Below, one piece after another: positions 1,123 to 55,460 of a DNA stretch of 64,000 bases (positions are counted from its first letter, which is position 1; every line of letters starts with the position of its first letter). The position numbers and the translations under genes were made by a program. The stretch is taken from contig OY282385.1 of the NCBI GenBank assembly GCA_958295935.1, positions 1,674,001 to 1,738,000 on the forward strand. The letters run 5' to 3'. The notes under the pieces are model-generated. The model saw only the letters and a program-made list of their open reading frames with translations. It had not been told where the DNA came from and did not search any database. This stretch comes from an uncultured Dehalococcoidia bacterium (GTDB lineage Bacteria; Chloroflexota; Dehalococcoidia; Lucifugimonadales; Lucifugimonadaceae).

Positions 1123-2997
1123 ATGAGCGAAAAAGTGACTCCCCTGTTCCCGGAGGGACACTCCGGGCAAGAACTGCGAAAAGGGCCAGACCTCGACTTG
1201 GAACGACCAAGGCCGAACTGCCTTGCGTGCGGTTCCAACCTCACGCGGTCAAGGCTGTACAGACGTCTTCGCGTCTGTCCAAACTGCGAATTCCACTACA
1301 GCATCTCCGCGAGGCGGCGTATCGCAATGCTGGCAGACGAAGGCACCTTCAAGGAGACCAGCCGCTGGATACAGTCCCTCGATCCCCTGGAATTTTCGCC
1401 GAGAATTTCATACCGCGTACGCCTGCTTCAGGATCAAACGCGCACAGGACTCACCGAAGCTGCGGTCACGGGCGTCTGTCTCATAGGCGGAACACAGTCC
1501 GTAATCATCGTCCTGGACTTCGGATTCCTGGGCGGCAGCATGGGCCTCGTCGTCGGAGAGAAGGTCGCTTTGGCCCTCGAACTGGCGGCGAGGAAGAAAA
1601 TCCCCGCGGTCACGGTGGTCACAAGCGGAGGAGCGCGCATACAGGAGGGGGTGCTGTCCCTCATGCAAATGGCCAAGACCGTGGTGGCCCTCAACTCCCT
1701 GCACGGCAAAGGCATGCCCTTGATCGCCGTCCTCGGAGATCCGTGCACCGGACAGGCCCTCGCGAGCTTCGCATCTTTGGCGGACGTCATATTCGCAGAA
1801 AAGGGATCGCACGTCGGTTTCGCACCCTTTCGGGCAATGCAGGGTGTGCAGGAGCGAAAGCGATTTCAGGACCAGTACACCGCAGAATTCTTCCAGGCAA
1901 ACGGACATCTCGACCGGGTCGTAGGAAGACAGCAACTAAAGCATGAAGTGGCATCCGTCTTGGACCTCATCACGCCAGAGTTCAAGCTCACCGCGCCGCG
2001 GCGCATGAAACCCCTAGAGGTCCCATTGACGCCGAGAGAGCCGTGGGAAATGGTGCAAATTGCCAGACGCCCCGACCGGCCAAAGGCCAGAGACTACATC
2101 GAGCGAGTCTTCGCCAACTTCATCGAACTGCACGGAGACCGCCTGCGAGGAGACGACCCGACCATCATCATCGGACTGGCCAGACTCGCAGGAGAATCTG
2201 TGATGGTCATAGCACAGCAAAAGGCATCACAGACGGCGGCCCACCGAAGCGAACCAGACGACCACACCGCACACGCAGAAGACAATGGAGCCAGGCAACA
2301 GGCTACAACCCACGGATACGTCTCGGCAGAGGGTTTCCGGAAAGCCACCCGCGCTATAAAACTCGCGCAGAGATTCACACTGCCCATCATCACCATCGTG
2401 GACACACCGGGGCCCGCACTCGGACTCGAGGAGGAGCGGCGAGGTATCGCAAGCGCCATAGCCACCACCATCGACGCTATGTCAAGCGCAGAAGTCCCAA
2501 CCCTCTCCGTGCTCATCGGAGAGGGAGGCAGCGAAGCAGCCCTCGCCCTGGGCGTTGCCGACGTAGTGATGATGCAGCAGAACGCCATCTACACTCCCAT
2601 AGCTCCAGAACAGGGCGCAGAAACCGAACTCAGCGACGCCGAGAGAGCCGAAGAACTGGCCAGGGCCCTGAAACTCACCTCTACCGACTGCCTCAAGATG
2701 GGAATCGTAGACGTCGTCATACCCGAACCGGCCGGGGGCGCACGCAACTCACCCGACGAAGCAGCCCGATTGCTAAAGCGCAGCCTTATGAGAACCCTCA
2801 TCGACCTCCGGGATATGCAGCGGAGAACCCTCGTGCGCCGGAGACAGAAGAAATACCGCAGCATCGGAGAGTACGGAAGCCGATTCCGTTCAGCATTGCG
2901 TAGGGAACTGAGAGTATGGCAGGCTGCATTGACCGCCGGAGTCAAGGCGCTGCGCAGCGAGGACGAAGATACCAGGGACGCCGCCGGAGGCGGTTAG
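1123..2997 (+). CDS. accDA: Fused acetyl-CoA carboxylase carboxyltransferase, beta plus alpha (AccD-AccA)
   Basis: About 624 residues joining both carboxyltransferase subunits of acetyl-CoA carboxylase, which moves the carboxyl group from carboxybiotin to acetyl-CoA to give malonyl-CoA for fatty acid synthesis. The N-terminal half is AccD: a four-cysteine zinc ribbon (C33, C36, C52, C55) then the crotonase-like core with GFLGGSMGLVVGEK and TSGGARIQEG. The second half, from roughly residue 310, is AccA, with YIERVFANFIELHGDR near its start and GEGGSEAALALGVAD in the core. The region after VIAQQKAS is rich in charged and His residues and differs from the usual AccA GHQKGR loop. Start chosen at ATG 1123, with AGGGTG just upstream; an in-frame ATG at 1087 is less likely. 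No accB or accC lies nearby. Fused forms are known in Chloroflexota and Actinobacteria. Confidence 0.93.
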   Translation: MSEKVTPLFPEGHSGQELRKGPDLDLERPRPNCLACGSNLTRSRLYRRLRVCPNCEFHYSISARRRIAMLADEGTFKETSRWIQSLDPLEFSPRISYRVRLLQDQTRTGLTEAAVTGVCLIGGTQSVIIVLDFGFLGGSMGLVVGEKVALALELAARKKIPAVTVVTSGGARIQEGVLSLMQMAKTVVALNSLHGKGMPLIAVLGDPCTGQALASFASLADVIFAEKGSHVGFAPFRAMQGVQERKRFQDQYTAEFFQANGHLDRVVGRQQLKHEVASVLDLITPEFKLTAPRRMKPLEVPLTPREPWEMVQIARRPDRPKARDYIERVFANFIELHGDRLRGDDPTIIIGLARLAGESVMVIAQQKASQTAAHRSEPDDHTAHAEDNGARQQATTHGYVSAEGFRKATRAIKLAQRFTLPIITIVDTPGPALGLEEERRGIASAIATTIDAMSSAEVPTLSVLIGEGGSEAALALGVADVVMMQQNAIYTPIAPEQGAETELSDAERAEELARALKLTSTDCLKMGIVDVVIPEPAGGARNSPDEAARLLKRSLMRTLIDLRDMQRRTLVRRRQKKYRSIGEYGSRFRSALRRELRVWQAALTAGVKALRSEDEDTRDAAGGG

Positions 2998-3743
2998 TAG
3001 ACGAAGCGGCGGATGGCCTCCGCTACGCCGTCCTCTGCAAGGGTACCGGTCACGTAAGCAGCCTCGCTTCTCACCTCCGCGGGAGCATGCCCCATCGCGA
3101 CGCCAAGCCCTGCGACCCTGAACATCGACAGATCGTTCAACCCGTCCCCAATGGCCATTAACTCGGAAGTATCCAGACCTGCCATTTCCGCAAAGCGGCG
3201 GACGCCCACAGCCTTGTCTATCCTGTCCCGCACGAAATTCACGTACCAGTAATCCCCTGAAGGGTTGGTGGAAAGTTCAATGGTGATTCCGTCCCGGGTC
3301 AAAGCCTTTGCACAAGACCTCGCCGTTGCTTCCCCCACCCCATGTGCAACTATTATCGTCACCTTCCACGCTCTGAAAGCCTCGGCAGACTGCACCATCC
3401 GCCCATCGTCCACGGCATAGAAGCTCAATCCCAAGTCGGAAATCGCGGAAATCAACCACCGGGCAGAAGCCTCAGGCATCGGACTCTGCTCCAGCGTGCG
3501 GCCCGTAACCGGATCCACCAGACGCGCCCCGTTGTCGCACACCTGAGGCATCCATAGCCCCAATAAACGCGCAAAATGCGCTGTATCGTCGGGCTCCCGC
3601 CCGGTCGCTATGATGACAGGCACCCGGTGGGACGCCCAACTTACCGCACTTCTTACGGCCTGCGAACACCGGCCTCCAACATCCAATAAGGTGCCGTCCA
3701 GGTCTAGCACCACCCCGGAGGGCCTGAAATCAACTGCCTCCAA
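2994..3743 (-). CDS. HAD-superfamily (Cof-like) phosphatase
   Basis: 249 residues, the normal length for Cof-type HAD phosphatases. The nucleophile motif LDLDGTLLDVGG is at residues 13-24, motif II is in VPVIIATGRE, and the metal-binding motif is in MAIGDGLNDLSMFRVAG, followed by GLGVAMGHAP. A C2-type cap lies between. These cytoplasmic enzymes dephosphorylate small phosphorylated metabolites; the substrate cannot be told from sequence. Its stop codon overlaps the stop of convergent accDA by a few bases. It starts 1 bp after the stop of the 2-hydroxyacid dehydrogenase gene, so the two are very probably co-transcribed. Confidence 0.85.
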   Translation of the reverse strand: MEAVDFRPSGVVLDLDGTLLDVGGRCSQAVRSAVSWASHRVPVIIATGREPDDTAHFARLLGLWMPQVCDNGARLVDPVTGRTLEQSPMPEASARWLISAISDLGLSFYAVDDGRMVQSAEAFRAWKVTIIVAHGVGEATARSCAKALTRDGITIELSTNPSGDYWYVNFVRDRIDKAVGVRRFAEMAGLDTSELMAIGDGLNDLSMFRVAGLGVAMGHAPAEVRSEAAYVTGTLAEDGVAEAIRRFVY

Positions 3744-9513: not shown

Positions 9514-13431
<3,918 letters not shown>

Positions 13432-41093: not shown

Positions 41094-41381
41094 TCAGCGG
41101 TACTTTACGAGGTACACGCCGTCGGCATCTACGATGTCTTTTGGGGCTTCTCCCAGGGTGAGGATTCGCTGCTCGCCTACGGCTTCAGAGTCCCGCCAGG
41201 TCATCACTATCGAGCCTTGGCGGAGTTCGTAATACCACCGGGCCAGAACATCCCAGATTCTTTCTCGTATCCCATCGGTCATTTGCGGTGCGGTGTACAC
41301 TCCGGGCGCTATTTCCAGCATCGTCGAGGTCAGGAATCCCCGATAGCGGGCGGCCACGTTGACGGTAACGACCACGGTCAT
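41094..41381 (-). CDS. cas2: CRISPR-associated endoribonuclease-fold protein Cas2 (type I-E)
   Basis: 95 residues, the usual size of the I-E branch of Cas2 (CT1978/E. coli type). The N-terminus MTVVVTVNVAARYRGFLTS and the following LEIAPGVYTAP are diagnostic. The centre GIRERIWDVLARWY and the GSIVMTWRD strand follow the family pattern. As the dimer between two Cas1 dimers it forms the spacer-integration complex. No DnaQ domain is fused to it, unlike some I-E Cas2 proteins; a separate DnaQ-like gene is present beyond cas3. It follows cas1 after 21 nt and ends 40 nt before the array. Confidence 0.95.
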   Translation of the reverse strand: MTVVVTVNVAARYRGFLTSTMLEIAPGVYTAPQMTDGIRERIWDVLARWYYELRQGSIVMTWRDSEAVGEQRILTLGEAPKDIVDADGVYLVKYR

Positions 41382-41402
41382 GTCCTGTTCCTCATCTTCG
41401 CC

Positions 41403-42320
41403 TTACTCTCGGGGAGGGGCTTTCCGCCCATCATCGGGGATAACCACATCGGCGAAGAGGGTCTTGATGCGGTCGATCATCCTGGGAATCACGTGCTTGG
41501 TGCGTAGCAATTCCCCGGTGGTGCGCCTGGTGTGCCGCTCGACGTTCAGCGCGGGGTTGTCCATCACGGCCCTGGCCGACTGGAAGGCTGCGGGCAGCAG
41601 GATGGTGTCCCGGAACAGGTCGGCCACGTCGAGGGGAAAAGCCTCTCCGCTGATTTCGTGTATGAAGCCCAGCTGTGGGATTGCGCCGACCGCGGTGACG
41701 GCAATTACAGCGGCCGAAGTGACGGCCACCGAGGCGTGGTTGATGGCCTGATTTGGGATGTCCGCCCACGTCGGGTCGTTTCGGTCGTATCGGCGCCCCT
41801 TCCATGGAATGCCGTAGCGTTGGGCCAGAGTCTTGTAGGTCCGCTTCATGCGTGCGCCTTCGACGCCGCGCAGCGCCGGGAGATTCTGCTGGGGCAGCAC
41901 TTCGCCCAACCTCATGGCATACATCTTCCTGGCTATGGTGATATGGCTTCCATCGGCATCGGCCCATGCCTGCATCTGCTTCCGTGCAATTTCCGACGCG
42001 TCAGGCATCAACGGGGGTGCGGTGTAGCACCTCACGCCGTCCTCGCCTACGGCGACGAGCGCGGTACCGTGGCGCGCCATTAACCGCAAGGCGTCGTGGC
42101 TCACCGTCGATCCCGGTCCTAGCAGGATCATGGACAAGGATTGGAACGGGATGCCGTACTCGCCTGCTTCCAACGAGCTGCCGGCGTCCGGTTTTCCATT
42201 TCGTTCGAAGCGCAGCGTACCGTCTCGCACGGTAAGCGCGCCTCTGGACAGCCACAGGAGCCCGTGCCGATCGGCATGGGGTATCCTGGCGGTCTCCAGT
42301 CCTAAGCGCCCTCTCAGCAT
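41403..42320 (-). CDS. cas1: CRISPR integrase Cas1 (type I-E)
   Basis: 305 residues, typical of I-E Cas1. The metal-binding residues are in view: Glu in ALRGVEGARMKR, His in LGFIHEISGEAF and Asp in FPLDVADLFRD. It catalyses integration of prespacers at the leader-repeat junction together with Cas2. GGGAGA lies 8 nt before the ATG at 42320, supporting this start and independent translation after the mini-array region. The C-terminal tail (VVIPDDGRKAPPRE) is variable, as in other members. Completeness suggests that adaptation is functional, in line with the size of the array. Confidence 0.97.
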   Translation of the reverse strand: MLRGRLGLETARIPHADRHGLLWLSRGALTVRDGTLRFERNGKPDAGSSLEAGEYGIPFQSLSMILLGPGSTVSHDALRLMARHGTALVAVGEDGVRCYTAPPLMPDASEIARKQMQAWADADGSHITIARKMYAMRLGEVLPQQNLPALRGVEGARMKRTYKTLAQRYGIPWKGRRYDRNDPTWADIPNQAINHASVAVTSAAVIAVTAVGAIPQLGFIHEISGEAFPLDVADLFRDTILLPAAFQSARAVMDNPALNVERHTRRTTGELLRTKHVIPRMIDRIKTLFADVVIPDDGRKAPPRE

Positions 42321-42387
42321 CGGACGATCTCCCTTCCCGGTGTATGCAAGGGAATGTATTTTCGAGTTTCGGGGAGCATCCCATCCT

Positions 42388-42475
42388 AACCATACCCCGC
42401 GCGTGCGGGGAACCTCTGCAATCCTGTCCGCTGTAGCTTCTGTGTGCGGTCTGTCCCCGCGTTTGCGGGGAATCG
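42388..42475 (-). CRISPR. Two-repeat mini-array between cas6e and cas1
   Basis: Two degenerate repeats lie 60 nt apart. The left one (42388-42414) holds CCCCGCGCGTGCGGGG, identical to the array stem; the right one (42448-42475) holds GGTCTGTCCCCGCGTTTGCG followed by GGGAAT. The 33 nt between them (42415-42447) is spacer-like. Both are in the same orientation as the main array, so the cas mRNA carries two crRNA-sense hairpins between cas6e and cas1. The flanks read GGTTCC rather than GGCTCC, as in other I-E repeat subtypes. Confidence 0.8.
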
Positions 42476-42512
42476 GGATGAATTATTCAGTTGTTAAGGT
42501 GCAGGAGAGACC

Positions 42513-43271
42513 TCACGCGCGTGCCGGACGCAAGAGCAGCATCCCGTAGCCGTAGGCTCGGTGGCGGCCGATGCCCTGGGCGAGCAGGCCATCGAATGCT
42601 GCGGAGTCCGTGATGGTCAGGACACCCCGCATCACTGCGTCGGGGCCTTGGCTGTGGCGGAGGGCGTGCAGCTTGCGGAAAGCGCGTGTGCGCTGGAAGG
42701 ACACCAGCGTGGTCTTCTCGAAATCAAGTATTGCTGCGCCCTTGCGGTCAAGCCGCCCGGATAGCCACTTGGCGTATACCTCTTCCCGGCTCCGTTTCAT
42801 ACCGCCCTTTTCCGGGTATTGGATGGCCTCGTAGAGGAAGGCGTCACACTCTTTCCTGGGTCGGTCTTTGGCGTTGCGGGTACGGCGCACGATGGGCCGG
42901 ATGCGTACCTCGAATCCGAGGCGTTTACCCGCCGCCAACTGGCGGGGCATCACCTTGCTGTCGATGGTCGAGCCGGGGATGATTCGGGCTTGGAGCGGGT
43001 CGGCGCAGATGGCGACAGACTCTCGCAGGGCGTCGGCATCCGCCTGCCCATACCCGTAGAGGCATCCGGTCGACGCGCCGCGGGGGGTTATCAAGCGGAA
43101 CGGCTTAGGCGCCAGGTTCCCGAAGCACTCGGTCAACAAGCAGTGCATCGCGTGGTCGGGGTCTTGCAGACGTCTCATCCCCATCCAACGTTGAAACTGG
43201 CGCACGTCGACCTCGGCGCGGACCATTTGCAGGGCGGCCGTTTCCGGGGCGGCGTCGGTTGCCATGGTCAT
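42513..43271 (-). CDS. cas6e: CRISPR RNA endonuclease Cas6e (CasE/Cse3)
   Basis: 252 residues. The N-terminal region contains RRLQDPDHAMHCLLTECFG, the D-x-H-x-x-H motif around the catalytic His of Cas6e. The C-terminal glycine-rich loop is GIGRHRAYGYGMLLL, the family signature. It cuts the repeat hairpin to release crRNAs and stays bound as the head of Cascade. Its start overlaps the end of cas5e by 4 nt, indicating translational coupling. Downstream lie two repeat hairpins that it could in principle cut in its own mRNA. Confidence 0.95.
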   Translation of the reverse strand: MTMATDAAPETAALQMVRAEVDVRQFQRWMGMRRLQDPDHAMHCLLTECFGNLAPKPFRLITPRGASTGCLYGYGQADADALRESVAICADPLQARIIPGSTIDSKVMPRQLAAGKRLGFEVRIRPIVRRTRNAKDRPRKECDAFLYEAIQYPEKGGMKRSREEVYAKWLSGRLDRKGAAILDFEKTTLVSFQRTRAFRKLHALRHSQGPDAVMRGVLTITDSAAFDGLLAQGIGRHRAYGYGMLLLRPARA

Positions 43272-44044
43272 GTCTGCTCTTCCTTCTCCGGAGATGCGGC
43301 TTCTACGTCGGAGGCGAACTTATCCCGGTCGATAGCGCCTTGGCATACCCACCGGCCGCCTCCATGAAGACCGGAGATCCAGTTGCGCTGGTCGGTGAGC
43401 ATGTAGGTGCGGCTGGCTTCAATCTCCGGTGAGCCTTCCTCGGCGGGCCATAGGGTCCTCACTGGGTCGCGACTGGGCTTCTCATCCCGCAGGGGATGCG
43501 CCAGGAGCGCGGCCAGCGACGTATCTCCATCCCTGAACCTGGCGAACAGCCGGCTGGAGGGCAGACAAGGCTTGCGTCCGATGAACAGGGGACGCGCCGG
43601 TTCTTGCAGGGCTTCGGCCAGCCTGTCCAGTGTTAGCCCCCCGTCTATCGGCTCCAGTCGGAGGGCGACGGTCACGCGCATGTCGGCGTAGTAGTCGCGG
43701 TAACGCAGGTGTGGGGCATTATAGGTGTTGGCTCCTCCTGCCCGTTCCTCTGGCGCGCCTCTGGTGGTCCAACCCTTGTCCTTGGCGGCCAGTTGTGCGG
43801 TCTGGAAGTCTCGCGTGCTGAGGCCCCCGTGGGGTTCCCGGTCGATGCGGGCGGCGAAGACCATCTGGTCCTGCAGGTCTTGGTGGCGTTGCCGGTCGAC
43901 ACGCCGCCATCCCAGCGCATTTGCGAGCAGTCCGGTGATCATCGACGCCGCGGGAAAGGGTCGTATGACGCCCAGATTGTCGATGGTCTCTCCGCCGAAG
44001 GCCATGAACGGAGATTCCAGATTGATTATCAAGTGCCTGGCCAT
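43268..44044 (-). CDS. cas5: Cascade subunit Cas5e (CasD)
   Basis: 258 residues. The opening MARHLIINLESPFMAFGGET leads into DNLGVIRPFPAASMITGLLA, typical for Cas5e, with LGWRR shortly after. FIGRKPCLPSSRLF is the expected central motif. It binds the 5' handle of the crRNA at the base of Cascade, next to Cse1. It starts 2 nt after cas7e and overlaps cas6e by 4 nt. Confidence 0.95.
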   Translation of the reverse strand: MARHLIINLESPFMAFGGETIDNLGVIRPFPAASMITGLLANALGWRRVDRQRHQDLQDQMVFAARIDREPHGGLSTRDFQTAQLAAKDKGWTTRGAPEERAGGANTYNAPHLRYRDYYADMRVTVALRLEPIDGGLTLDRLAEALQEPARPLFIGRKPCLPSSRLFARFRDGDTSLAALLAHPLRDEKPSRDPVRTLWPAEEGSPEIEASRTYMLTDQRNWISGLHGGGRWVCQGAIDRDKFASDVEAASPEKEEQT

Positions 44045-44046
44045 GG

Positions 44047-45225
44047 TTACACCTTGGCGTTGCGGATGGCGTCAGCCGCCCATACTGCGAGGTCGTCGAG
44101 GCAGAGGCGTTCCGCGTTGGGGATTTCGCAGTCTTCCACGGACATCACCCGTCGGGACCCTTTCATCCCGTAACAGGCGTCTTGATTCCCCATCTCTTTG
44201 CCCAGCGCATCGAGGGCATCCTCAATCTGCGCCGGGACTGGCCTGCGAAAGGCGTCGGCAAGGCTGTACGGCTGGCTGGAACCGGCTTCAATCAGCATGA
44301 ACCTAGCCCGCCCGTAGGGCGCGGTGGAGCCGAGCTTGGCGCCGGGGGACACGGTGGCGATGAGGTGTGTCAGGTGTTCGACGACCTTGGCGGCGAGTTC
44401 CCGGTCCGTGTTCTCCCCGTCCCATTCCTCGGCCTTGCAGCCCTCTAGGTTGGAGACCAGCCCCGGAACGTCGACCACCACGTATCCGTAGAACAGTCCT
44501 GCGGTCAGCTCCATGTCGCCTATGTGTGCGGCCCCGGCGTCTTCTTCGTCGCCTTGCAGGTCATCCACGACGGAGAAGTAGTCGCTTTCGCTCTCCTCGC
44601 GGTGCACTGTGAAGGCGTGGGCGACGTGTATGGCGGCCTCGATGTTTGCGCCGGGGTCTGACGTGATCATGCGCCCGAACAGGGCGCCCTCCAGTCCGGC
44701 GGGCAGGCGGGCCGAATCGAGCAGGGCCCGGAAGTTGTTGCCCTCGCCGCGCCGGGTTTTGAACAGAGCATCCGCGGCCTCGCCGGCGGCCTTGGCGTCG
44801 TTGGGATGGGCGGCGCAGATTTCTGCGGCTCGCTGCTGCAAGTGCTCCACTTCAGGCAAACCCAGGAGCAGGGGCTGCCGTCCGCTCTTGCTCTCACCGC
44901 TGCTTCCGTAGACACCTACGTTGAAGGCTTTTTCCACCGCGTCCAGCACGTCGTCGCTAGTGCCGTTCTTGTCGTTGAGCGGCTGCATTACCATCCGATC
45001 AACGATGTTGCGCGACCTGATGGCCTTCGTGCTGCCCTTGATGCTGTGGATGGCGAAGTCATCCTGGGCGGTGCGCCAGTGCCGCTTGAGGCACTGGGAC
45101 GAGATGCGGGTTCGGACCGCGTCGCCGAATGGCATCCTCTTGGCCAGGCCGCTGTCGTCGCGGTTCAGCAGCGCGGCAGGGTAGGAGTGCAGGGTGTGGA
45201 TTTGCAGGAATCTTGGGGTTGTCAT
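44047..45225 (-). CDS. cas7: Cascade backbone subunit Cas7e (CasC/Cse4)
   Basis: 392 residues. The N-terminus FLQIHTLHSYPAALLNRDDS and the segment GLAKRMPFGDAVRTRISSQC, then LKRHWR, are diagnostic. Six copies of this RRM-fold protein form the Cascade backbone along the crRNA. AYGRARFMLIEAGSSQPYSL near residue 300 is the conserved C-terminal region. Spacing is 2 nt to both the upstream and the downstream gene, so the operon is tightly packed. Confidence 0.96.
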   Translation of the reverse strand: MTTPRFLQIHTLHSYPAALLNRDDSGLAKRMPFGDAVRTRISSQCLKRHWRTAQDDFAIHSIKGSTKAIRSRNIVDRMVMQPLNDKNGTSDDVLDAVEKAFNVGVYGSSGESKSGRQPLLLGLPEVEHLQQRAAEICAAHPNDAKAAGEAADALFKTRRGEGNNFRALLDSARLPAGLEGALFGRMITSDPGANIEAAIHVAHAFTVHREESESDYFSVVDDLQGDEEDAGAAHIGDMELTAGLFYGYVVVDVPGLVSNLEGCKAEEWDGENTDRELAAKVVEHLTHLIATVSPGAKLGSTAPYGRARFMLIEAGSSQPYSLADAFRRPVPAQIEDALDALGKEMGNQDACYGMKGSRRVMSVEDCEIPNAERLCLDDLAVWAADAIRNAKV

Positions 45226-45227
45226 GG

Positions 45228-45851
45228 TTATTCTCCTTGAGCTTCCGATTGTTGTGAGCTGCGCCGCTTCGCTTCGTAATATTTACGGGCGATGTGGCGG
45301 CGGCCCTGTTCGGCCGCGTCTTCGTTGTAACCCTCGTTCAAAATGTATTGGGCCATCTCGCGCCAGTTGAAAGACGCCCCGGATGCGGCGAGCATCCTGA
45401 ACATGCGGGCCAGCAGGGTTCTCAGCATCGGACCCCGGGCGGTCAACAGCCGGTTGAGCCGCGACTCGCTGTAGAAGCCTCTTTCGCCCCGTTGTTGCTC
45501 ACCGCCCAGGAACAGCGCCTGTCCCACAGGAACAGAACCATCGTGGGCGGTAGGCCTATCGCCGTCTCCGCCGGTTGTCGGCGTCATCAGCGCGATGCCG
45601 TGTAGGATGAGTGCCCACTTGTTTTCGATGACGGGGTTGCCCAGCAGTTTGTAGTGCGCCAACAGCCGCCAGAAGGCCGCCGCGTCTGGCTCGTCGGGGT
45701 CCATCCGCCGCAACTCGGCCAAGTCGCCGCGGCCATGGTCGGCAAGCCGAGCTATGCTACGAGCCAAGCTCACCGTTGTATCACCCCAAGATTGCGGCCG
45801 CCCGCGCTGTTCCTGAGCGTCGGGCGATTGTGCAAATTCCGTAGTGGTCAC
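45228..45851 (-). CDS. cse2: Cascade small subunit Cse2 (CasB)
   Basis: 207 residues, mostly alpha-helical, as expected for the Cse2 dimer that stabilises the displaced strand in Cascade. ELRRMDPDEPDAAAFWRLLA and the later LNRLLTARGPMLRTLLARM segments are recognisable, and the C-terminal half carries WREMAQYILN. Its start overlaps the cse1 stop by 4 nt. Residues 1-30 are variable. Confidence 0.92.
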   Translation of the reverse strand: MTTTEFAQSPDAQEQRGRPQSWGDTTVSLARSIARLADHGRGDLAELRRMDPDEPDAAAFWRLLAHYKLLGNPVIENKWALILHGIALMTPTTGGDGDRPTAHDGSVPVGQALFLGGEQQRGERGFYSESRLNRLLTARGPMLRTLLARMFRMLAASGASFNWREMAQYILNEGYNEDAAEQGRRHIARKYYEAKRRSSQQSEAQGE

Positions 45852-47458
45852 TCTTTGACCTCCTCATTACTTTCTGGAAACAGATCCGGCAAACCCTTCG
45901 GCCCGCGCAACCGCCCACCGAACAGCCCTTCGGCATTGACTCGCGCCTTGTACCGGTATATGGCCGGACAGGGCAGCGAGTCCGTGGCATCACGAAGCAA
46001 GGCGCGGGCGTGGTTCACTACGCCGCTTTTGTCCTTATCGTCAAGCAGCCATCGGTCGCGGATGCCCTGCCGCTGACTCTCCGGGGCCTCGAATTCGTCC
46101 TGAAGGTTGTCGAAAAAGGTGTTGTCCACGATTTCGTCCAGCCGATTCAGCCATTTGCGGGCGCGCTCCCGGTGTTCGGGGCTGGTGTTCTCGGCGTCGC
46201 CCCGGGCGGCGAAAACCTGAATGGCATGGCTTAATATGCGCTGGACTATACCGACGTCACCTATTCTTGCCTTGGCGATGGCGCCCAAGTCGTCCAAGTC
46301 ACTGGAATTGCGCCCCAGCATCGCTAATTTCAGTTTGTTTCTGACCGGTATGGTGCGCTCGTAGTAGCCTTCCGTCTTGCCCTGTCCGCGCACCATCGCT
46401 CGGGCCACCAGTCGCATAGGTTCGGTGTCACCCTGCTCGGTCTTGGTTGGCTTGAGCAAGGCGGGATGAATCCAATCGGCCGAGGTCAGGTAATCGGCAA
46501 TCCGCTTGTACGTGAAACCGCCGGCGCTCAGGGTTAACGGCAAGCCATCTCTTTTACCGTTGGTGGGCGTCCAAGGGTCTCCGGTGCGGCCTTTAAGGTG
46601 CTTTCCGTCCATCCGGGCCGCTTTGGAACTGGTGCGGATTCCGTAGAGTGTTCGGTTGTCTCCGGTACGCAGTCGTATGCGGCGGCAGACCTCGACGTAT
46701 AGGGGGTCGAGATTATTCGGCTGCAGGAACTCGTTCTTTGTTCCATCCCACGGCAACGTCCATAGCAGAGTTGCGCCGCCGTTGTCCGGGTAGTGTGGGT
46801 TTTCGTCCAGGATTTTCGGTCGGAGTTCCAGCAGCGCCTTGATATCGCGCTGGACGTGGGCACCGGTACCTCCACGGGAGGGCGCAAGAGAAAACGCGGG
46901 GCGGTTGCCGAGGCCGCCGTTCATGCGGGAGACGCCGTAATTCCCGGCTCCACCGAACCCTTCCATGGTTTGCAGGGTAATCAGGGCGAACATCCAGTCG
47001 TCGTTGTGGGACTGGGCGGCCACTGCCGATTTAAGGTCGTGGTTCTTGGACGTGACCAGCATATCCAGTTCGTCGGGGGTTTCTACCCTGTTTTTGTAGT
47101 CCTTCTTGCGGTCCTTGGAGGAGGCGGGCGGCTGCATGAAGGCGGGCCTCGTGATGTCGTCCACCACCAACTCCCACGGCTCGTCGCCAGGGAAATCCTT
47201 TATGGTGAGGCCGCGGAGGAGGTCGGCCCATTCCCTGGAGGTCGTGGGCGGTTCCTCGAGGCCGGCCCGGTGGATGGCCATCGTGCCCATAAGGGCCAGA
47301 CAGGCGTGCCAGGCGTGTCGCTGGTGGGGGCGCAGGGCAGGAAACGCTTCAACCTCGTCGGCCATCAGCGCGGCGTAAACTTCGGGCAGGGACGCATCAA
47401 CGCGCCTGCCCTCGGACTGGTCGAATCGTATCAGGGGATCTGTGAGGAGATTATGCAC
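45848..47458 (-). CDS. cse1: Cascade large subunit Cse1 (CasA)
   Basis: 536 residues, typical of Cse1. The N-terminus NLLTDPLIRFDQSEGRRV and the following LPEVYAALMADEVEAFPALR are family signatures, as is RPHQRHAWHACL. The middle holds the expected KSAVAAQSHNDDW and GYGVSRMNGG-like segment (here NYGVSRMNGGLGNRP). Cse1 recognises the PAM and recruits Cas3. It is the first gene of the tight Cascade cluster; an approximately 420-bp region separates it from cas3. Confidence 0.95.
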   Translation of the reverse strand: MHNLLTDPLIRFDQSEGRRVDASLPEVYAALMADEVEAFPALRPHQRHAWHACLALMGTMAIHRAGLEEPPTTSREWADLLRGLTIKDFPGDEPWELVVDDITRPAFMQPPASSKDRKKDYKNRVETPDELDMLVTSKNHDLKSAVAAQSHNDDWMFALITLQTMEGFGGAGNYGVSRMNGGLGNRPAFSLAPSRGGTGAHVQRDIKALLELRPKILDENPHYPDNGGATLLWTLPWDGTKNEFLQPNNLDPLYVEVCRRIRLRTGDNRTLYGIRTSSKAARMDGKHLKGRTGDPWTPTNGKRDGLPLTLSAGGFTYKRIADYLTSADWIHPALLKPTKTEQGDTEPMRLVARAMVRGQGKTEGYYERTIPVRNKLKLAMLGRNSSDLDDLGAIAKARIGDVGIVQRILSHAIQVFAARGDAENTSPEHRERARKWLNRLDEIVDNTFFDNLQDEFEAPESQRQGIRDRWLLDDKDKSGVVNHARALLRDATDSLPCPAIYRYKARVNAEGLFGGRLRGPKGLPDLFPESNEEVKE

Positions 47459-47549: not shown

Positions 47550-47748
<199 letters not shown>

Positions 47749-47846
47749 GTTTTTTTGGTCTTGCTCGGCTGATATTAGCATAACACTTATGTATGGTACA
47801 GGGAAACCCCTTCCTTAATCAAGTCTCTGGGTCGGATCGTTCTAAG

Positions 47847-47936
47847 GATTCCCCCACTACCGTGGGGATAGGCCCTGTTACGCTAACATGCCATGCGCGC
47901 GAGCGCGAGGTTCCCCCGCACACGCGGGGATAGACG
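47847..47936 (+). CRISPR. Two-repeat mini-array at the 3' end of cas3
   Basis: Repeat 1 (47847-47874) and repeat 2 (47909-47936) lie 62 nt apart with a 34-nt spacer. Repeat 2 matches the crRNA-sense consensus at 25 of 28 positions (TTCCCCCGCACACGCGGGGA core). Repeat 1 matches at about 20, and its stem change CCCCA/TGGGG is compensatory. Both are in crRNA-sense orientation on the plus strand, opposite to the main array. The cas3 stop codon (47878-47880) falls inside the spacer. Confidence 0.8.
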
Positions 47937-50628
47937 ACGGGCCTACGCCGGGAGGAGTAAGCCGGCGTAGGCCATGGCGGTCGTATAGGAAGGCGCGGTC
48001 GCTGACTGTGAAGGTGAAACCGTTTTTGATGGGATCCGTCGTGACCGTGTCTTCGGCAGCGACTCCCCGAAGCAGATGTGCGGGTATCGTCATAGCCTCG
48101 ATGAATGGCGACAGGCCGAAGGGGCTGGGGCGCGGCGAGTCGAACTTGACCTCGATGCCCTCTTCGCCCAGGCGGGTGCGGATGCGCTCCTCGTCGGAGG
48201 GGAACAGTATGTCGTCGTTGTCGGTGAAGAAGGACTTGTCGCGGCGGATAACGGCGCTAGCGGCGGTCAGTCCATCGGCCAGATCCTCGCCCGTGACGTC
48301 GTTTGCGTGGCCTTGCCAGTCTTCGCCCATTTCCTGAACGATGGCCTCCAGTCTGTCGGGGTGAGTGGCCTCTTCCACTAGCTTCCGGTTCATTCCTGGG
48401 ATGTCCCACTGTGGGAATTTGGCTATCAGCCGCCGTGTGGCTTGGAGGACGCGCAGATCCTTGTAGACGTGGCCTTTGGGGCCGAGGCCGGTGGCGCGGC
48501 TGCTTTGCAGCAGGGGCGAGAGGTCTTGAGAGTTCGGCGTGAGCACGATGCAGGCGGGGGTCTCGTAGCCCGCGGGCCTGCTGTCTCTTTGGTGTCGGTG
48601 CAGTCGTCCGATGCGTTGCAGCAGCACGTCCACGGGGCAGAGGTCGGTTATCAGCAGGTCGGCGTCTATGTCCAGGGACTGTTCCAGTGTCTGGGTTCCC
48701 ACCACTATGAGGGCCCCGGGTGGGGCGTCCTTGCCGAGCCGTTTTTCCACCTCGTCGTCGAGTGCGCGGCGGTCGTCTGCGGCGAACCGGCTGTGATGCG
48801 GCGCGGCCATTCCGTTGAGCGAGAACAACAGGCGATTGTCATCTCCGGCGGCCTGTTCGAGGGACTTCTGCGTACTGATGGCGTTGCTGACGGTGTTGCG
48901 GATGACCAGGGTCCTGGCCCCGGCCCGGGCTGCCTGCAGCGCCAGAGCCGCGATCCTGTCGGAGTCGTGGATAATCGGCTGGGCGGAGATGTTTACGTTC
49001 TTCCGCTGTCGGTTTTCGCCCGCGGCGGAGACGCTCTCTCCGTTTGTGGCTCTGACGCTGACGGCCGGGTATGGGGATTGGATGGCTTCGTCTAGCTGCG
49101 GTGCATCGTTGGGATTCAAACGTGCGGCGGCCAGCCACTGCCGCCGTGCTACCGAGCCGAGGGTGGCGGACATGAGCAGGGCGTAGCCGCCTGCGCCGAG
49201 GTGGGCATCCAGCAGGGCCTTGATGATGCGGCGCATGTGGGCGTCGGATGCGTGTACTTCGTCGACCACCAGCAGGTTGCGGGACAGGCAGGCGGCGCGC
49301 ATGTGGGCGTGTTTCACTTTGAGGGCTGCCATCATTGCCTGGTCGACGGTTCCGACGGCTATTTGCGCTGCGAGGTAGCGCTTCGAGCTTTCGGCGGCCC
49401 AGCGGCGGCTGCAGGTGGCGTCGTCGGGACCGTCGTCCCACCCGACCTCGTAGTCTTGCAGGTGACGTCCGCTGATGTCCCCGGCCTTGACGTAGCCCGG
49501 CACGGCCAGCACAGGCTCGGGCCGCTGGTCAGCAGGGAACATGCGCTTCACGAAGCTAGTTACCCTTGTGTGGAGTTGGCTGGCGGCGGCGCGGGTAGGT
49601 AGGGCGAAGTAGAGGCCGTCCACCAGTCTTGCGTCGTACATGCGGGCGAACCGCGACAGGGCGGCCTCGGTCTTGCCGGAGCCGGTTTCGGACTCGATGA
49701 TGACCAGCGGTTCATGGAGGGGGGTTTCGGTCGCGGCCTGCTGGATGGCGTTGGGGGTGAAACCGAAGAGGGCGGGAAAGTCTGGCAACCCGTTGGCCAA
49801 TACGTCTCGCTGTTTTTCCAGGTTCAGGCCGATTTTGGCGACCGCGTCCCTGGCCCGTTGCCGCGCCTCGGCTATGTAGTCGTCGCGAGGCTCATCGCAG
49901 AAGGGGAACCATTTTTCGTTCGAGCCGATCCAGTCTGCCAGGGTGCACAGGCCGAGGAAGTGGTGCTGAAACTCCGGAGACGACGGCAGGGGCGGCGCGC
50001 GGTCGGTGAAAGCTCTTGGGAACCACTGGCGGGCGAGTTCTCCGATGCGGCGGACGTGTTCTCGAGGTCGCAAGTTGCGGTAGTTGCTCCAGAGCCTTGA
50101 ATTGGAGGATAGCCCCCCTTCCAACTGCAAGGGCTGACCGTGGTGCGAAAGCGTAGCGATGAACAAGGCGCATATGGTCTCGCCCTGACGGTCGTCCCAT
50201 GAGTCGGTAGCGTCCCACCACCATCCCAGGCTTTCAAGAAACCATTCCGTGGTCGCGCGGTCGTGGCCCGTCAACACCGGGGTCAGTTCTCGGTAGTGTC
50301 CGGCGGGGCCCGGGCCGCGCATTCCGTCTGGAAAGTCGTCGTTTAGCCATACTTGGGTCTGGAAGCCTATGTTGACTTTGCCGACGTCGTGCATGGCGGC
50401 GAAGAGGGCGAGGCGCGCGGCCGTGGCGTCGTGCAGGTCGTCGCGGCCGCCGGAGCGCGCCAGCCGCTGGCGGATTGTGGGCTGGTTCAGCAGGGCCTCG
50501 AAGCAGGCGCCTACGTCGGCCAGGTGACACTCCAGCAGGTGGATGCGCTCAGGCCCCCGCTGGCGGTATGGCTGAGCCTTGGCCCAGAATTTGCGGGTGT
50601 AGTCGGCTCTGACCGTGTTACCTGACAT
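47878..50628 (-). CDS. cas3: CRISPR nuclease-helicase Cas3 with a repeat-encoded C-terminus
   Basis: 916 residues. The N-terminal HD nuclease has LECHLADVG and FAAMHDVGKVNIGFQ. The superfamily 2 helicase has Walker A ESETGSGKTEAAL, the DEVH box in LLVVDEVHASDAHM, motif III LLMSATLGS, and motifs V-VI in GTQTLEQSLDIDADLL and LLQRIGRLHRH. It unwinds and degrades the DNA strand exposed by Cascade. GGAGGA precedes the ATG at 50628. The last 20 or so codons (PSSIPACAGEPRARAHGMLA) translate the antisense of a CRISPR repeat and part of its spacer, so the natural end was probably near GLRRLTPPGV. Whether the tail matters is unknown. Confidence 0.96.
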   Translation of the reverse strand: MSGNTVRADYTRKFWAKAQPYRQRGPERIHLLECHLADVGACFEALLNQPTIRQRLARSGGRDDLHDATAARLALFAAMHDVGKVNIGFQTQVWLNDDFPDGMRGPGPAGHYRELTPVLTGHDRATTEWFLESLGWWWDATDSWDDRQGETICALFIATLSHHGQPLQLEGGLSSNSRLWSNYRNLRPREHVRRIGELARQWFPRAFTDRAPPLPSSPEFQHHFLGLCTLADWIGSNEKWFPFCDEPRDDYIAEARQRARDAVAKIGLNLEKQRDVLANGLPDFPALFGFTPNAIQQAATETPLHEPLVIIESETGSGKTEAALSRFARMYDARLVDGLYFALPTRAAASQLHTRVTSFVKRMFPADQRPEPVLAVPGYVKAGDISGRHLQDYEVGWDDGPDDATCSRRWAAESSKRYLAAQIAVGTVDQAMMAALKVKHAHMRAACLSRNLLVVDEVHASDAHMRRIIKALLDAHLGAGGYALLMSATLGSVARRQWLAAARLNPNDAPQLDEAIQSPYPAVSVRATNGESVSAAGENRQRKNVNISAQPIIHDSDRIAALALQAARAGARTLVIRNTVSNAISTQKSLEQAAGDDNRLLFSLNGMAAPHHSRFAADDRRALDDEVEKRLGKDAPPGALIVVGTQTLEQSLDIDADLLITDLCPVDVLLQRIGRLHRHQRDSRPAGYETPACIVLTPNSQDLSPLLQSSRATGLGPKGHVYKDLRVLQATRRLIAKFPQWDIPGMNRKLVEEATHPDRLEAIVQEMGEDWQGHANDVTGEDLADGLTAASAVIRRDKSFFTDNDDILFPSDEERIRTRLGEEGIEVKFDSPRPSPFGLSPFIEAMTIPAHLLRGVAAEDTVTTDPIKNGFTFTVSDRAFLYDRHGLRRLTPPGVGPSSIPACAGEPRARAHGMLA

Positions 50629-51294
<666 letters not shown>

Positions 51295-53585: not shown

Positions 53586-55460
53586 ATGAAGCGAACTGGT
53601 CTCATATTCTTGGTCGCGGCGTTGGCAATGCTGGCCTCTTTGGCGGGCGTGGGCTGCGCCGGCACAGAGTCGCTCGATTACGACGTGGACGACGACGGGC
53701 TTATCGAGATGTCCAGGCTGGGACAGCTGAACGCTATCCGCTGGGACCTGGACGGCGACGGCGAGGCGGACGACTCCGAAAACGCCGACGACTACGCCGC
53801 GGCGTTCCCGGACGCGGCCGAGGGAATGGGCTGCCCCGCCGGCGGCTGCGCGGGCTACGAGCTGACCCGCAGCCTGGACTTCGCCGCCGGCGCAAGTTAC
53901 GCATTAGGCGCGGTCAACTCCGAGTGGACTCAGGGAAGCGGCTGGATACCCATCGGCAGCCACGCCGAGCCGTTCCTTGGGACGTTCGACGGCGGCGGCA
54001 ACACCATAGCCAACCTGTTCATAGACCGCCCCGAGGACAACCACGTCGGGCTGTTCGGTGAGAGTAACGGCGAGATTCGCGGCCTCGGCGTAGTGAATGC
54101 GAACATAAAGGGATCGAACACTCTGGGCGTGATGGCCGGAACGAACAACGGCGCCATAGTAGACAGCTACGTCACCGGTGAGGTCGAAGGCAGGGTCAGG
54201 GACGCGGGCGGAATGGTCTCGATTAACGCGGGTTCAATCAGCGGCAGCTACGCCGATGCGGTCGTGAGCGGTGTGGTCAACATTGCCGGCGGTCTGGTCG
54301 CCGTCAACTATGGGGAGATACGGGACAGCTACGCCACGGGCAACGTGTCCTGCTCGGGCAGGGTCGCCGGCGGGCTGGCGGCCCTCAGCTTCGGTGAAGT
54401 CAGCGGCAGCTACGCCACGGGCGACGTAGCCGGCAACGACCTGGTTGGCGGGCTGGTGGGCCTCAACCAGGGTCCCATCACGGGAAGTTACGCCACGGGC
54501 GTCGTAGCCGGTCAGGGAGACGACATTGGCGGGCTGGCTGGCGTCAACTACAGGCCGATAACCAACAGCTACAGCGAGGCCAAGGTAACCGGCCGACATC
54601 GTATCGGCGGGCTGGTTGGGATCAACCGCAACAACGGCGAAATTGTTGCGAGTTACGCCGAGGGCATGGTGTCCGGAGACATCGGCGCGGGCGGACTGGC
54701 TGGCTGGAACGACGGCAAGATCAACGGGAGTTACGCCAACAGCCCCGTGACCGGAGAGGACGATATTGGCGGCCTCGTCGGGAAGAACAACGGGCCGGTC
54801 ACCGTGAGCTACGCCACTGGCAGAGTGTCCGCAGCCCATCGAGTTGGCGGTCTGGTTGGAGACAACAACAATGCCGGGACCATTAGTTCGAGCTACTCAT
54901 CGAGCGAGGTCTTGGGCTCGGACGACGTTGGCGGGCTGGTGGGCGAGAATCAGGGCAAGATCAGCGGCAGCTACGCTCAGGGCGACGTGTCGGGCGAGAG
55001 GGATACCGGCGGGCTTGTGGGCGAGAACCTGTTGAGCGAGGACGCCGGGTCTATAGTGGCAAGTTACGCCACGGGCAACGTGCGCGGCATGATCCGGGTT
55101 GGCGGCCTCGTGGGCTGGAACAACGGCCCGGTCAGCACGAGCTATGCCGTGGGCGGGGTGTTCGGTGAGATCAGCGGCGGACTGATAGGCGAGAACGAGA
55201 ACACCGACACGATCAACGCGGTCTACTGGGACACCCAGACCACGGGGCAGGCGGAGGCTGTGGGCTTTGGGCCGTCCGCCGGGACCGAGGGCAAGACCAC
55301 GGCCGAACTGCAGTCGCCGATAGGCTACACCGGCATTTACGCCACCTGGAACGGGGGCGCGGACTTTTGGAACTTCATCTCCCCAGGCCATTACCCGGCG
55401 CTGAAAGCGGACTTCGACGGCGACGGAACGGCGACCTCGCAGGAGTTCGGCGGCCAGTAG
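53586..55460 (+). CDS. GLUG-repeat surface lipoprotein
   Basis: 624 residues. The signal peptide (MKRTGLIFLVAALAMLASLA) ends near Cys24 in GVGC, an approximate lipobox whose -3 position is Gly rather than Leu. Acidic DxDxDG-like segments follow (DYDVDDDGLIEM, WDLDGDGEADD), suggesting calcium binding. From about residue 150 to 560 there are more than a dozen GLUG-type repeats of the form GGLVG-x-N...SYATG-x-V. Such repeats form beta-helices on secreted or surface-bound proteins. The last 60 residues are the domain that commonly closes these proteins (YWDTQTTGQ, FWNFISPGHYPALK), ending with another DxDGDG. Probably an exported adhesin-like protein. Confidence 0.85.
   Translation: MKRTGLIFLVAALAMLASLAGVGCAGTESLDYDVDDDGLIEMSRLGQLNAIRWDLDGDGEADDSENADDYAAAFPDAAEGMGCPAGGCAGYELTRSLDFAAGASYALGAVNSEWTQGSGWIPIGSHAEPFLGTFDGGGNTIANLFIDRPEDNHVGLFGESNGEIRGLGVVNANIKGSNTLGVMAGTNNGAIVDSYVTGEVEGRVRDAGGMVSINAGSISGSYADAVVSGVVNIAGGLVAVNYGEIRDSYATGNVSCSGRVAGGLAALSFGEVSGSYATGDVAGNDLVGGLVGLNQGPITGSYATGVVAGQGDDIGGLAGVNYRPITNSYSEAKVTGRHRIGGLVGINRNNGEIVASYAEGMVSGDIGAGGLAGWNDGKINGSYANSPVTGEDDIGGLVGKNNGPVTVSYATGRVSAAHRVGGLVGDNNNAGTISSSYSSSEVLGSDDVGGLVGENQGKISGSYAQGDVSGERDTGGLVGENLLSEDAGSIVASYATGNVRGMIRVGGLVGWNNGPVSTSYAVGGVFGEISGGLIGENENTDTINAVYWDTQTTGQAEAVGFGPSAGTEGKTTAELQSPIGYTGIYATWNGGADFWNFISPGHYPALKADFDGDGTATSQEFGGQ

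Follow-up and report, generated by a model that had tools for sequence, protein, structure and literature searches.

Why does the cas3 gene of a type I-E CRISPR-Cas locus end inside a pair of CRISPR repeats that read in the opposite direction? The question is raised by a 64,000-nucleotide stretch of DNA from an uncultured Dehalococcoidia bacterium, which was analysed at its full length (the window). Its minus strand carries cas3, cas8e, cas11e, cas7e, cas5e, cas6e, cas1 and cas2, followed by a main array of about 368 repeats (GGCTCCCCCGCACGCGCGGGGATAGACC). All cas genes and the main array are thus on the minus strand, while the mini-array at the end of cas3 is on the plus strand. The original prediction had placed a two-repeat mini-array at the 3' end of cas3, inverted relative to the main array; its position (47847-47936) and its plus-strand orientation were confirmed, and the locus is built up as follows:

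47878..50628, minus strand: cas3 (Cas3e), its frame extended through ψR2 into the spacer.
45848..47458, minus strand: cas8e (Cse1), the first cas gene downstream of the guide target.
41094..45851, minus strand: cas11e, cas7e, cas5e, cas6e, cas1 and cas2, the remainder of the type I-E operon.
47847..47874, plus strand: ψR1, the degenerate first repeat, with mismatches to the array repeat at 8 of 28 positions and 6 of 6 stem pairs, one of them compensated.
47875..47908, plus strand: the spacer of 34 nt, consisting of the 29th nucleotide (47875) and the 33-nt guide TGTTACGCTAACATGCCATGCGCGCGAGCGCGA.
47909..47936, plus strand: ψR2, the second repeat, which matches the array repeat at 25 of 28 positions (3 mismatches), as had been predicted.

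CreRs are crRNA-like RNAs from mini-CRISPRs that direct Cascade to repress its own cas operon (reviews PMC12737573, PMC13131331); they have been listed for types I-B, I-E and V-A (PMC13131331). From the sequence comparisons presented below it is very likely that the mini-array is a CreR-type element repressing its own cas operon, and that the Cas3 extension is a separate by-product of a hairpin inversion. In every feature that could be compared at the sequence level, the element agrees with CreRs. The CreR type is already known, and the main additions made here are the unusual placement of the element and the comparative evidence.

With its pair of diverged repeats enclosing a single guide next to the cas operon, the mini-array has the arrangement of a CreR. 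The stem and the 5' handle are kept at the sequence level for processing by Cas6, the processing itself being predicted. The 6-bp stem of ψR1 (CCCCAC/GUGGGG) is intact and contains a G-C to A-U compensatory change, a feature that the original prediction had recognized, and ψR1 supplies the 5' handle ATAGGCC(C) (AUAGGCCC). When the part of the window beyond 41053, to the right of the main array, was searched for repeats with up to nine mismatches, only ψR1/ψR2 and a pair at 42388-42475 were found, which excludes a chance origin of the mini-array repeats.

The latter pair constitutes a second degenerate two-repeat mini-array (42388-42475, minus strand), located between cas6e and cas1 in the cas-sense orientation. 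No convincing target with PAM and seed was found for its guide (GCACACAGAAGCTACAGCGGACAGGATTGCAG), either in the genome or in the operon, and this mini-array was rejected as a further CreR. The relatives G107, G148 and G170 (L045) retain one or two repeats near the same site. In G148 (L041, oriented 2545-3215), about 640 bp have been inserted between cas6e and cas1, flanked by two CRISPR repeats of the same orientation.

The origin of the spacer at the cas3 end was sought, as had been suggested, among phage and chromosomal sequences. Neither the phage records nor an exact search of the guide start against viral contigs gave a match, and a phage origin of the spacer was rejected on these grounds. 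The chromosome did contain a match, unique in the genome and located in the host's own cas8e promoter region, whereas the spacer of an immune array would be of foreign origin. The elements of this region are listed below.

47817..47822, minus strand: proposed -35 (TTGATT) of the cas8e-operon promoter, with a spacing of 18 to the -10.
47793..47798, minus strand: proposed -10 (TACCAT) of the cas8e-operon promoter, weak in the window and stronger in relatives.
47786..47788, minus strand: PAM AAG (AAN in 20 of 20 loci).
47753..47785, minus strand: partial protospacer, guide positions 1-14 being paired except 6 and 12 (47785-47772).

The guide, read as TGTTACGCTAACAT, lies opposite AAG-TGTTATGCTAATAT (47785-47772, minus strand). 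Within guide positions 1-17, 12 of the 15 scored positions are paired, which is among the weakest results in the 20 loci discussed below. The seed-plus-PAM pattern occurs once in the 2.75-Mb genome, and a search of the whole genome at up to one mismatch revealed no further chromosomal target with seed and PAM. The target starts at 47785, directly past the TTGATT-18-TACCAT pair that reads toward cas8e. Partial complementarity to the cognate cas promoter, combined with a PAM, is as described for CreRs; the promoter of the window is assigned by its position and by weak hexamers, with a score of 8.75 versus a shuffle mean of 8.37.

Relatives were gathered via Cas3 within the same order and, with the Cas3 alignment as the query, from named assemblies. 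Those with Cas3 relatives belong to uncultured Dehalococcoidia, other Chloroflexota including Caldilineaceae, and Candidatus Binatia. A repeat-guide-repeat unit was found in the cas8e-cas3 gap of at least 20 type I-E loci including the window, mostly from Chloroflexota. In the automatic scans the seed threshold was strict and the handle pattern fixed; L044, L048 and L063 were missed by them and were recovered by reading the sequence. No mini-array could be recognised in more than a dozen related loci, in which the gap is often compact, and the mini-array is therefore not essential to the system. The unit is antisense to the cas genes in 18 of the 20 loci, while in L047 and L048 the element and its target are inverted together, making it cas-sense. 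ψR1 is more diverged than ψR2 in most of the mini-array loci; in 13 of 20 its stem keeps the canonical register with five or six pairs, and in the remainder there are fewer pairs or the stem is shifted.

The spacers differ from locus to locus, and each pairs with the cas8e-side promoter region of its own locus, beside an AAN PAM. The target is located on the opposite strand and upstream of the mini-array in all 20 loci, in 19 of them at 35-106 nt upstream of the first base of the guide. For the first 11 loci the best own-locus match of the guide (the guide itself excluded) was taken, without a PAM requirement or selection by score, and in 11 of 11 it lay in the cas8e-cas3 gap with an AAN PAM. 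An identical pairing picture was obtained for the nine later loci, the PAM of which is no independent evidence, as AA was required in the scan for eight of them and L063 was found by eye. Judged by these comparisons, the mini-array has long been established in the cas3-cas8e gap, and its guides co-vary with the local cas promoter.

The pairing itself has a distinctive pattern. Over the 20 loci, guide positions 1-5 match 20, 20, 17, 20 and 20 times, positions 7-11 match 20, 17, 15, 20 and 20 times, and positions 13-17 match 19, 19, 12, 16 and 16 times. Positions 6, 12 and 18 match 4, 4 and 5 times, the 25 % chance level. Scoring was done on 15 positions within 1-17; since positions 6 and 12 were omitted and 18 was unscored, the chance-level matching at these three is no selection artefact. 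Type I-E Cascade flips out every sixth guide base (PMC5904413), and the pattern is therefore the footprint expected of Cascade. It would not be expected from an ordinary inverted repeat or operator.

Guides scored 12-15 out of 15 against their own locus in 19 loci. Upon swapping guides and regions between loci, 338 of 342 combinations did not exceed 11; of the four that did, two came from the related pair L046/L071. The combination of an AA PAM and a 10/10 seed did not arise in any of 1000 shuffles of the window region that preserved dinucleotides. None of 318 main-array spacers reached 10/10 in the gap; seven reached 9/10, all without an AA PAM. G107, whose Cas3 is 81 % identical, differs from the window at guide positions 8, 13 and 14, and the target has changed along with the guide at all three. 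Complementarity has thus been maintained by co-variation, both in these co-changes and among the 20 loci with their different guides.

Clearer promoters than that of the window are present in L068 (TTGACT-17-TATAAT) and L077 (TTGACA-18-TATAAT), in both of which the AAT of the -10 doubles as PAM. In about a dozen loci, 0-9 nt separate the end of the best -10 from target position 1. A better promoter is found on the mini-array strand in L047 and L048, where it runs through the mini-array toward cas8e and is overlapped by the target. In G107, G177 and L060, cas8e starts 35-84 nt past the target; as no ORF intervenes, the regulated gene in these three would be cas8e itself. In eight other loci (L040, L041, L044, L045, L046, L054, L059 and L071), a conserved Cys-rich protein (about 60 aa) is encoded between target and cas8e, by the probable first gene of the putatively repressed operon there. 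The only similarity detected for this protein is a weak B-box-like zinc-finger match.

The extension of Cas3 requires an explanation of its own, for which two further features are needed.

47940..47973, without strand: perfect hairpin with a 12-bp stem, GGCCTACGCCGG-GAGGAGTAAG-CCGGCGTAGGCC, its 10-nt loop inverted relative to G107.
47550..47720, minus strand: small chimeric ORF of 56 aa, made of a truncated copy of a DEDDh exonuclease N-terminus and a copy of the ancestral Cas3 end (GLCREE-stop).

The stop of the Cas3 frame, at 47878, lies within the spacer. About 19 C-terminal residues of Cas3 (tail SSIPACAGEPRARAHGMLA) are translated from antisense ψR2 and spacer, in agreement with the roughly 20 residues of the original prediction. 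Comparison of Cas3 C-termini, which had been put forward as a check, revealed that 11 relatives with a readable Cas3 end have '...Y(D/E)RxGLxR...' and a stop ahead of the mini-array; the window-type tail was present in none of these 11 and appears peculiar to this genome. The hairpin (34 nt), the arms of which form a perfect palindrome, sits between ψR2 and the body of cas3. In G107, the closest relative, the loop is CTTACTCCTC and encodes, on the cas3 strand, the normal end ...LGLRREE-stop. The window loop is the exact reverse complement of it, with an identity of 0/10 as is and 10/10 when inverted; over the whole 34-nt hairpin, 20 positions are identical as is and 30 with the loop inverted. 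The cas3 stop was lost because of the inversion of the loop, and translation then runs through antisense ψR2 to the stop in the spacer. An inverted loop between palindromic arms is as expected of a template switch or inversion at a hairpin, and the Cas3 tail is very probably incidental and lineage-specific.

The chimeric ORF is located in the leader between the guide target and cas8e and is a rearranged fragment in which the ancestral Cas3 end is preserved once more. A 175-nt inverted duplication (82 %) links 47574-47748 with 50727-50901: the DEDDh exonuclease gene, which diverges from cas3, has its 5' part duplicated in the cas8e leader, joined to the copy of the old Cas3 end. Elsewhere in the window, positions 53586-55460 (plus strand) encode a probable secreted protein of 624 aa with repeats of about 27 residues (GGLVGxNxGxIxxSYAxGxV).

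The original prediction took the arrangement to suggest insertion of a repeat-spacer unit into the end of cas3, or array DNA moving by recombination. On this reading, a main-array fragment would have landed in cas3 by chance. The repeats do clearly belong to the main-array repeat family, and the tail is read from repeat DNA. However, the unit recurs at this position in many genomes, where the guides differ and each matches its own promoter, and the tail arose from the loop inversion: G107 shares the mini-array and keeps a normal cas3 stop. On the evidence of G107 and other relatives, an insertion or recombination of array DNA into cas3 was rejected, and a chance landing is extremely improbable. 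Very little probability is also left for an ordinary immune mini-array, inverted and decaying, that would have retained a phage spacer. That such sites can hold immune spacers is seen in G089 (L043, oriented 9868-10640), where the unit opens an array whose near-perfect repeats, at least nine in number, run antisense to the cas genes. Yet there too the first guide targets the cas promoter region, and a putative regulatory guide thus stands at the head of an apparently normal array, while the window spacer matches nothing but its own promoter.

The predicted transcript would be complementary to 59 nt at the 3' end of the extended cas3 frame and might control cas3 by pairing with its mRNA. The strands bear out the antisense orientation given in the original prediction, and nothing indicates an antisense role as the function of the putative transcript. 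The overlap with the frame is specific to the window genome, the cas3 stops of 11 relatives being at least 65 nt beyond the guide start, and antisense action is impossible in L047 and L048, since the element is cas-sense there; control of cas3 by this route is highly unlikely. An addiction module of the CreTA/CrePA kind shares the anatomy of the mini-array, which is that of creA. The guide would in that case repress a toxin, a small RNA or a protein, at the targeted promoter, and loss of Cascade would kill or arrest the cell. Candidates for a protein toxin would be the Cys-rich protein of several relatives and the 56-aa ORF at the same place in the window. This ORF is, however, a disrupted DEDDh copy, and the corresponding ORFs of other loci do not form a single family. 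A search for creT between target and cas8e yielded no ORF in G107, G177 and L060 and small ORFs elsewhere, RNA toxins being invisible to sequence. An addiction module is considered unlikely.

For a CreR-type element acting on its own cas operon, the following course of events is proposed. The mini-array would be transcribed on the plus strand, Cas6e would cut at both degenerate repeats, and the RNA would be loaded into type I-E Cascade. Using the AAG PAM and positions 1-5, 7-11 and 13-14, a pairing seen at the sequence level, guide-loaded Cascade would bind the start of the cas8e-cas11-cas7-cas5-cas6-cas1-cas2 operon. Bound there, it would occlude the -10/start-site region, block initiation and lower cas transcription. 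About 12-15 productive pairs would be sufficient to occupy the DNA and too few for cleavage by Cas3. A note of caution on repression comes from E. coli, in which seed-only binding of Cascade is often transcriptionally inert (PMC5904413). In the model for published CreRs, relief occurs when array crRNAs or anti-CRISPR proteins take Cascade (reviews PMC12737573, PMC13131331); by extension, the element would provide negative feedback, with repression being eased once either of these occupies Cascade.

The guides past the 29th repeat nucleotide are 32-33 nt long in 10 of the 20 loci and exactly 21 nt in six (L044, L046, L063, L068, L071 and L077). The 21-nt guides pair with the promoter region at 16-18 of 21 positions. 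In the type I-B system of Haloarcula hispanica, spacers shortened to 24 bp keep repression and lose interference and priming (PMC10989794), and by analogy a short guide may be how repression alone is achieved in nature. A tentative proposal, on balance doubtful, is that a shortened Cascade with a 21-nt guide represses and cannot license Cas3 and, independently of this, that the Cys-rich protein is a co-regulator or a CreP-like toxin. If true, natural guide shortening would separate repression from cleavage.

In conclusion, RNA-guided self-repression of CRISPR-Cas is predicted for uncultured, mostly Chloroflexota type I-E systems. Natural co-variation exposes the pairing rules of Cascade, namely a seed of five bases, freedom at every sixth base and an AA PAM, and the 20 natural guide-promoter pairs offer a test set for the minimal pairing that gives repression without self-cleavage. 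The locus also illustrates how an odd protein tail can arise as a by-product of hairpin-loop inversion next to a probable regulatory RNA gene.

Compared with the type I-E array of the same genome, the mini-array has the same repeat stem, handle and spacer length (33-34 nt), whereas it differs in having two degenerate repeats, in lying on the opposite strand and in carrying a guide that matches a host promoter. With CreA of the CreTA modules of types I-B and I-F it shares the ψR1-guide-ψR2 order, partial complementarity and repression by Cascade, which is predicted here (PMC8501985, PMC9458426). The more-diverged ψR1 is likewise a character of CreA (PMC9458426). Unlike in CreTA, the targeted promoter leads into cas genes, directly so in three relatives, and no creT was identified. 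Like the CreRs described in the reviews, the mini-array combines a pair of diverged repeats with a single guide next to the cas operon, has limited complementarity to the cas promoter beside a PAM, and shows no evident dedicated toxin at its locus. The element described here differs from them in that it is antisense and tail-to-tail with cas3, overlapping the cas3 frame in the window genome; in several relatives the guides are 21 nt long, and in one the unit runs on into a normal array.
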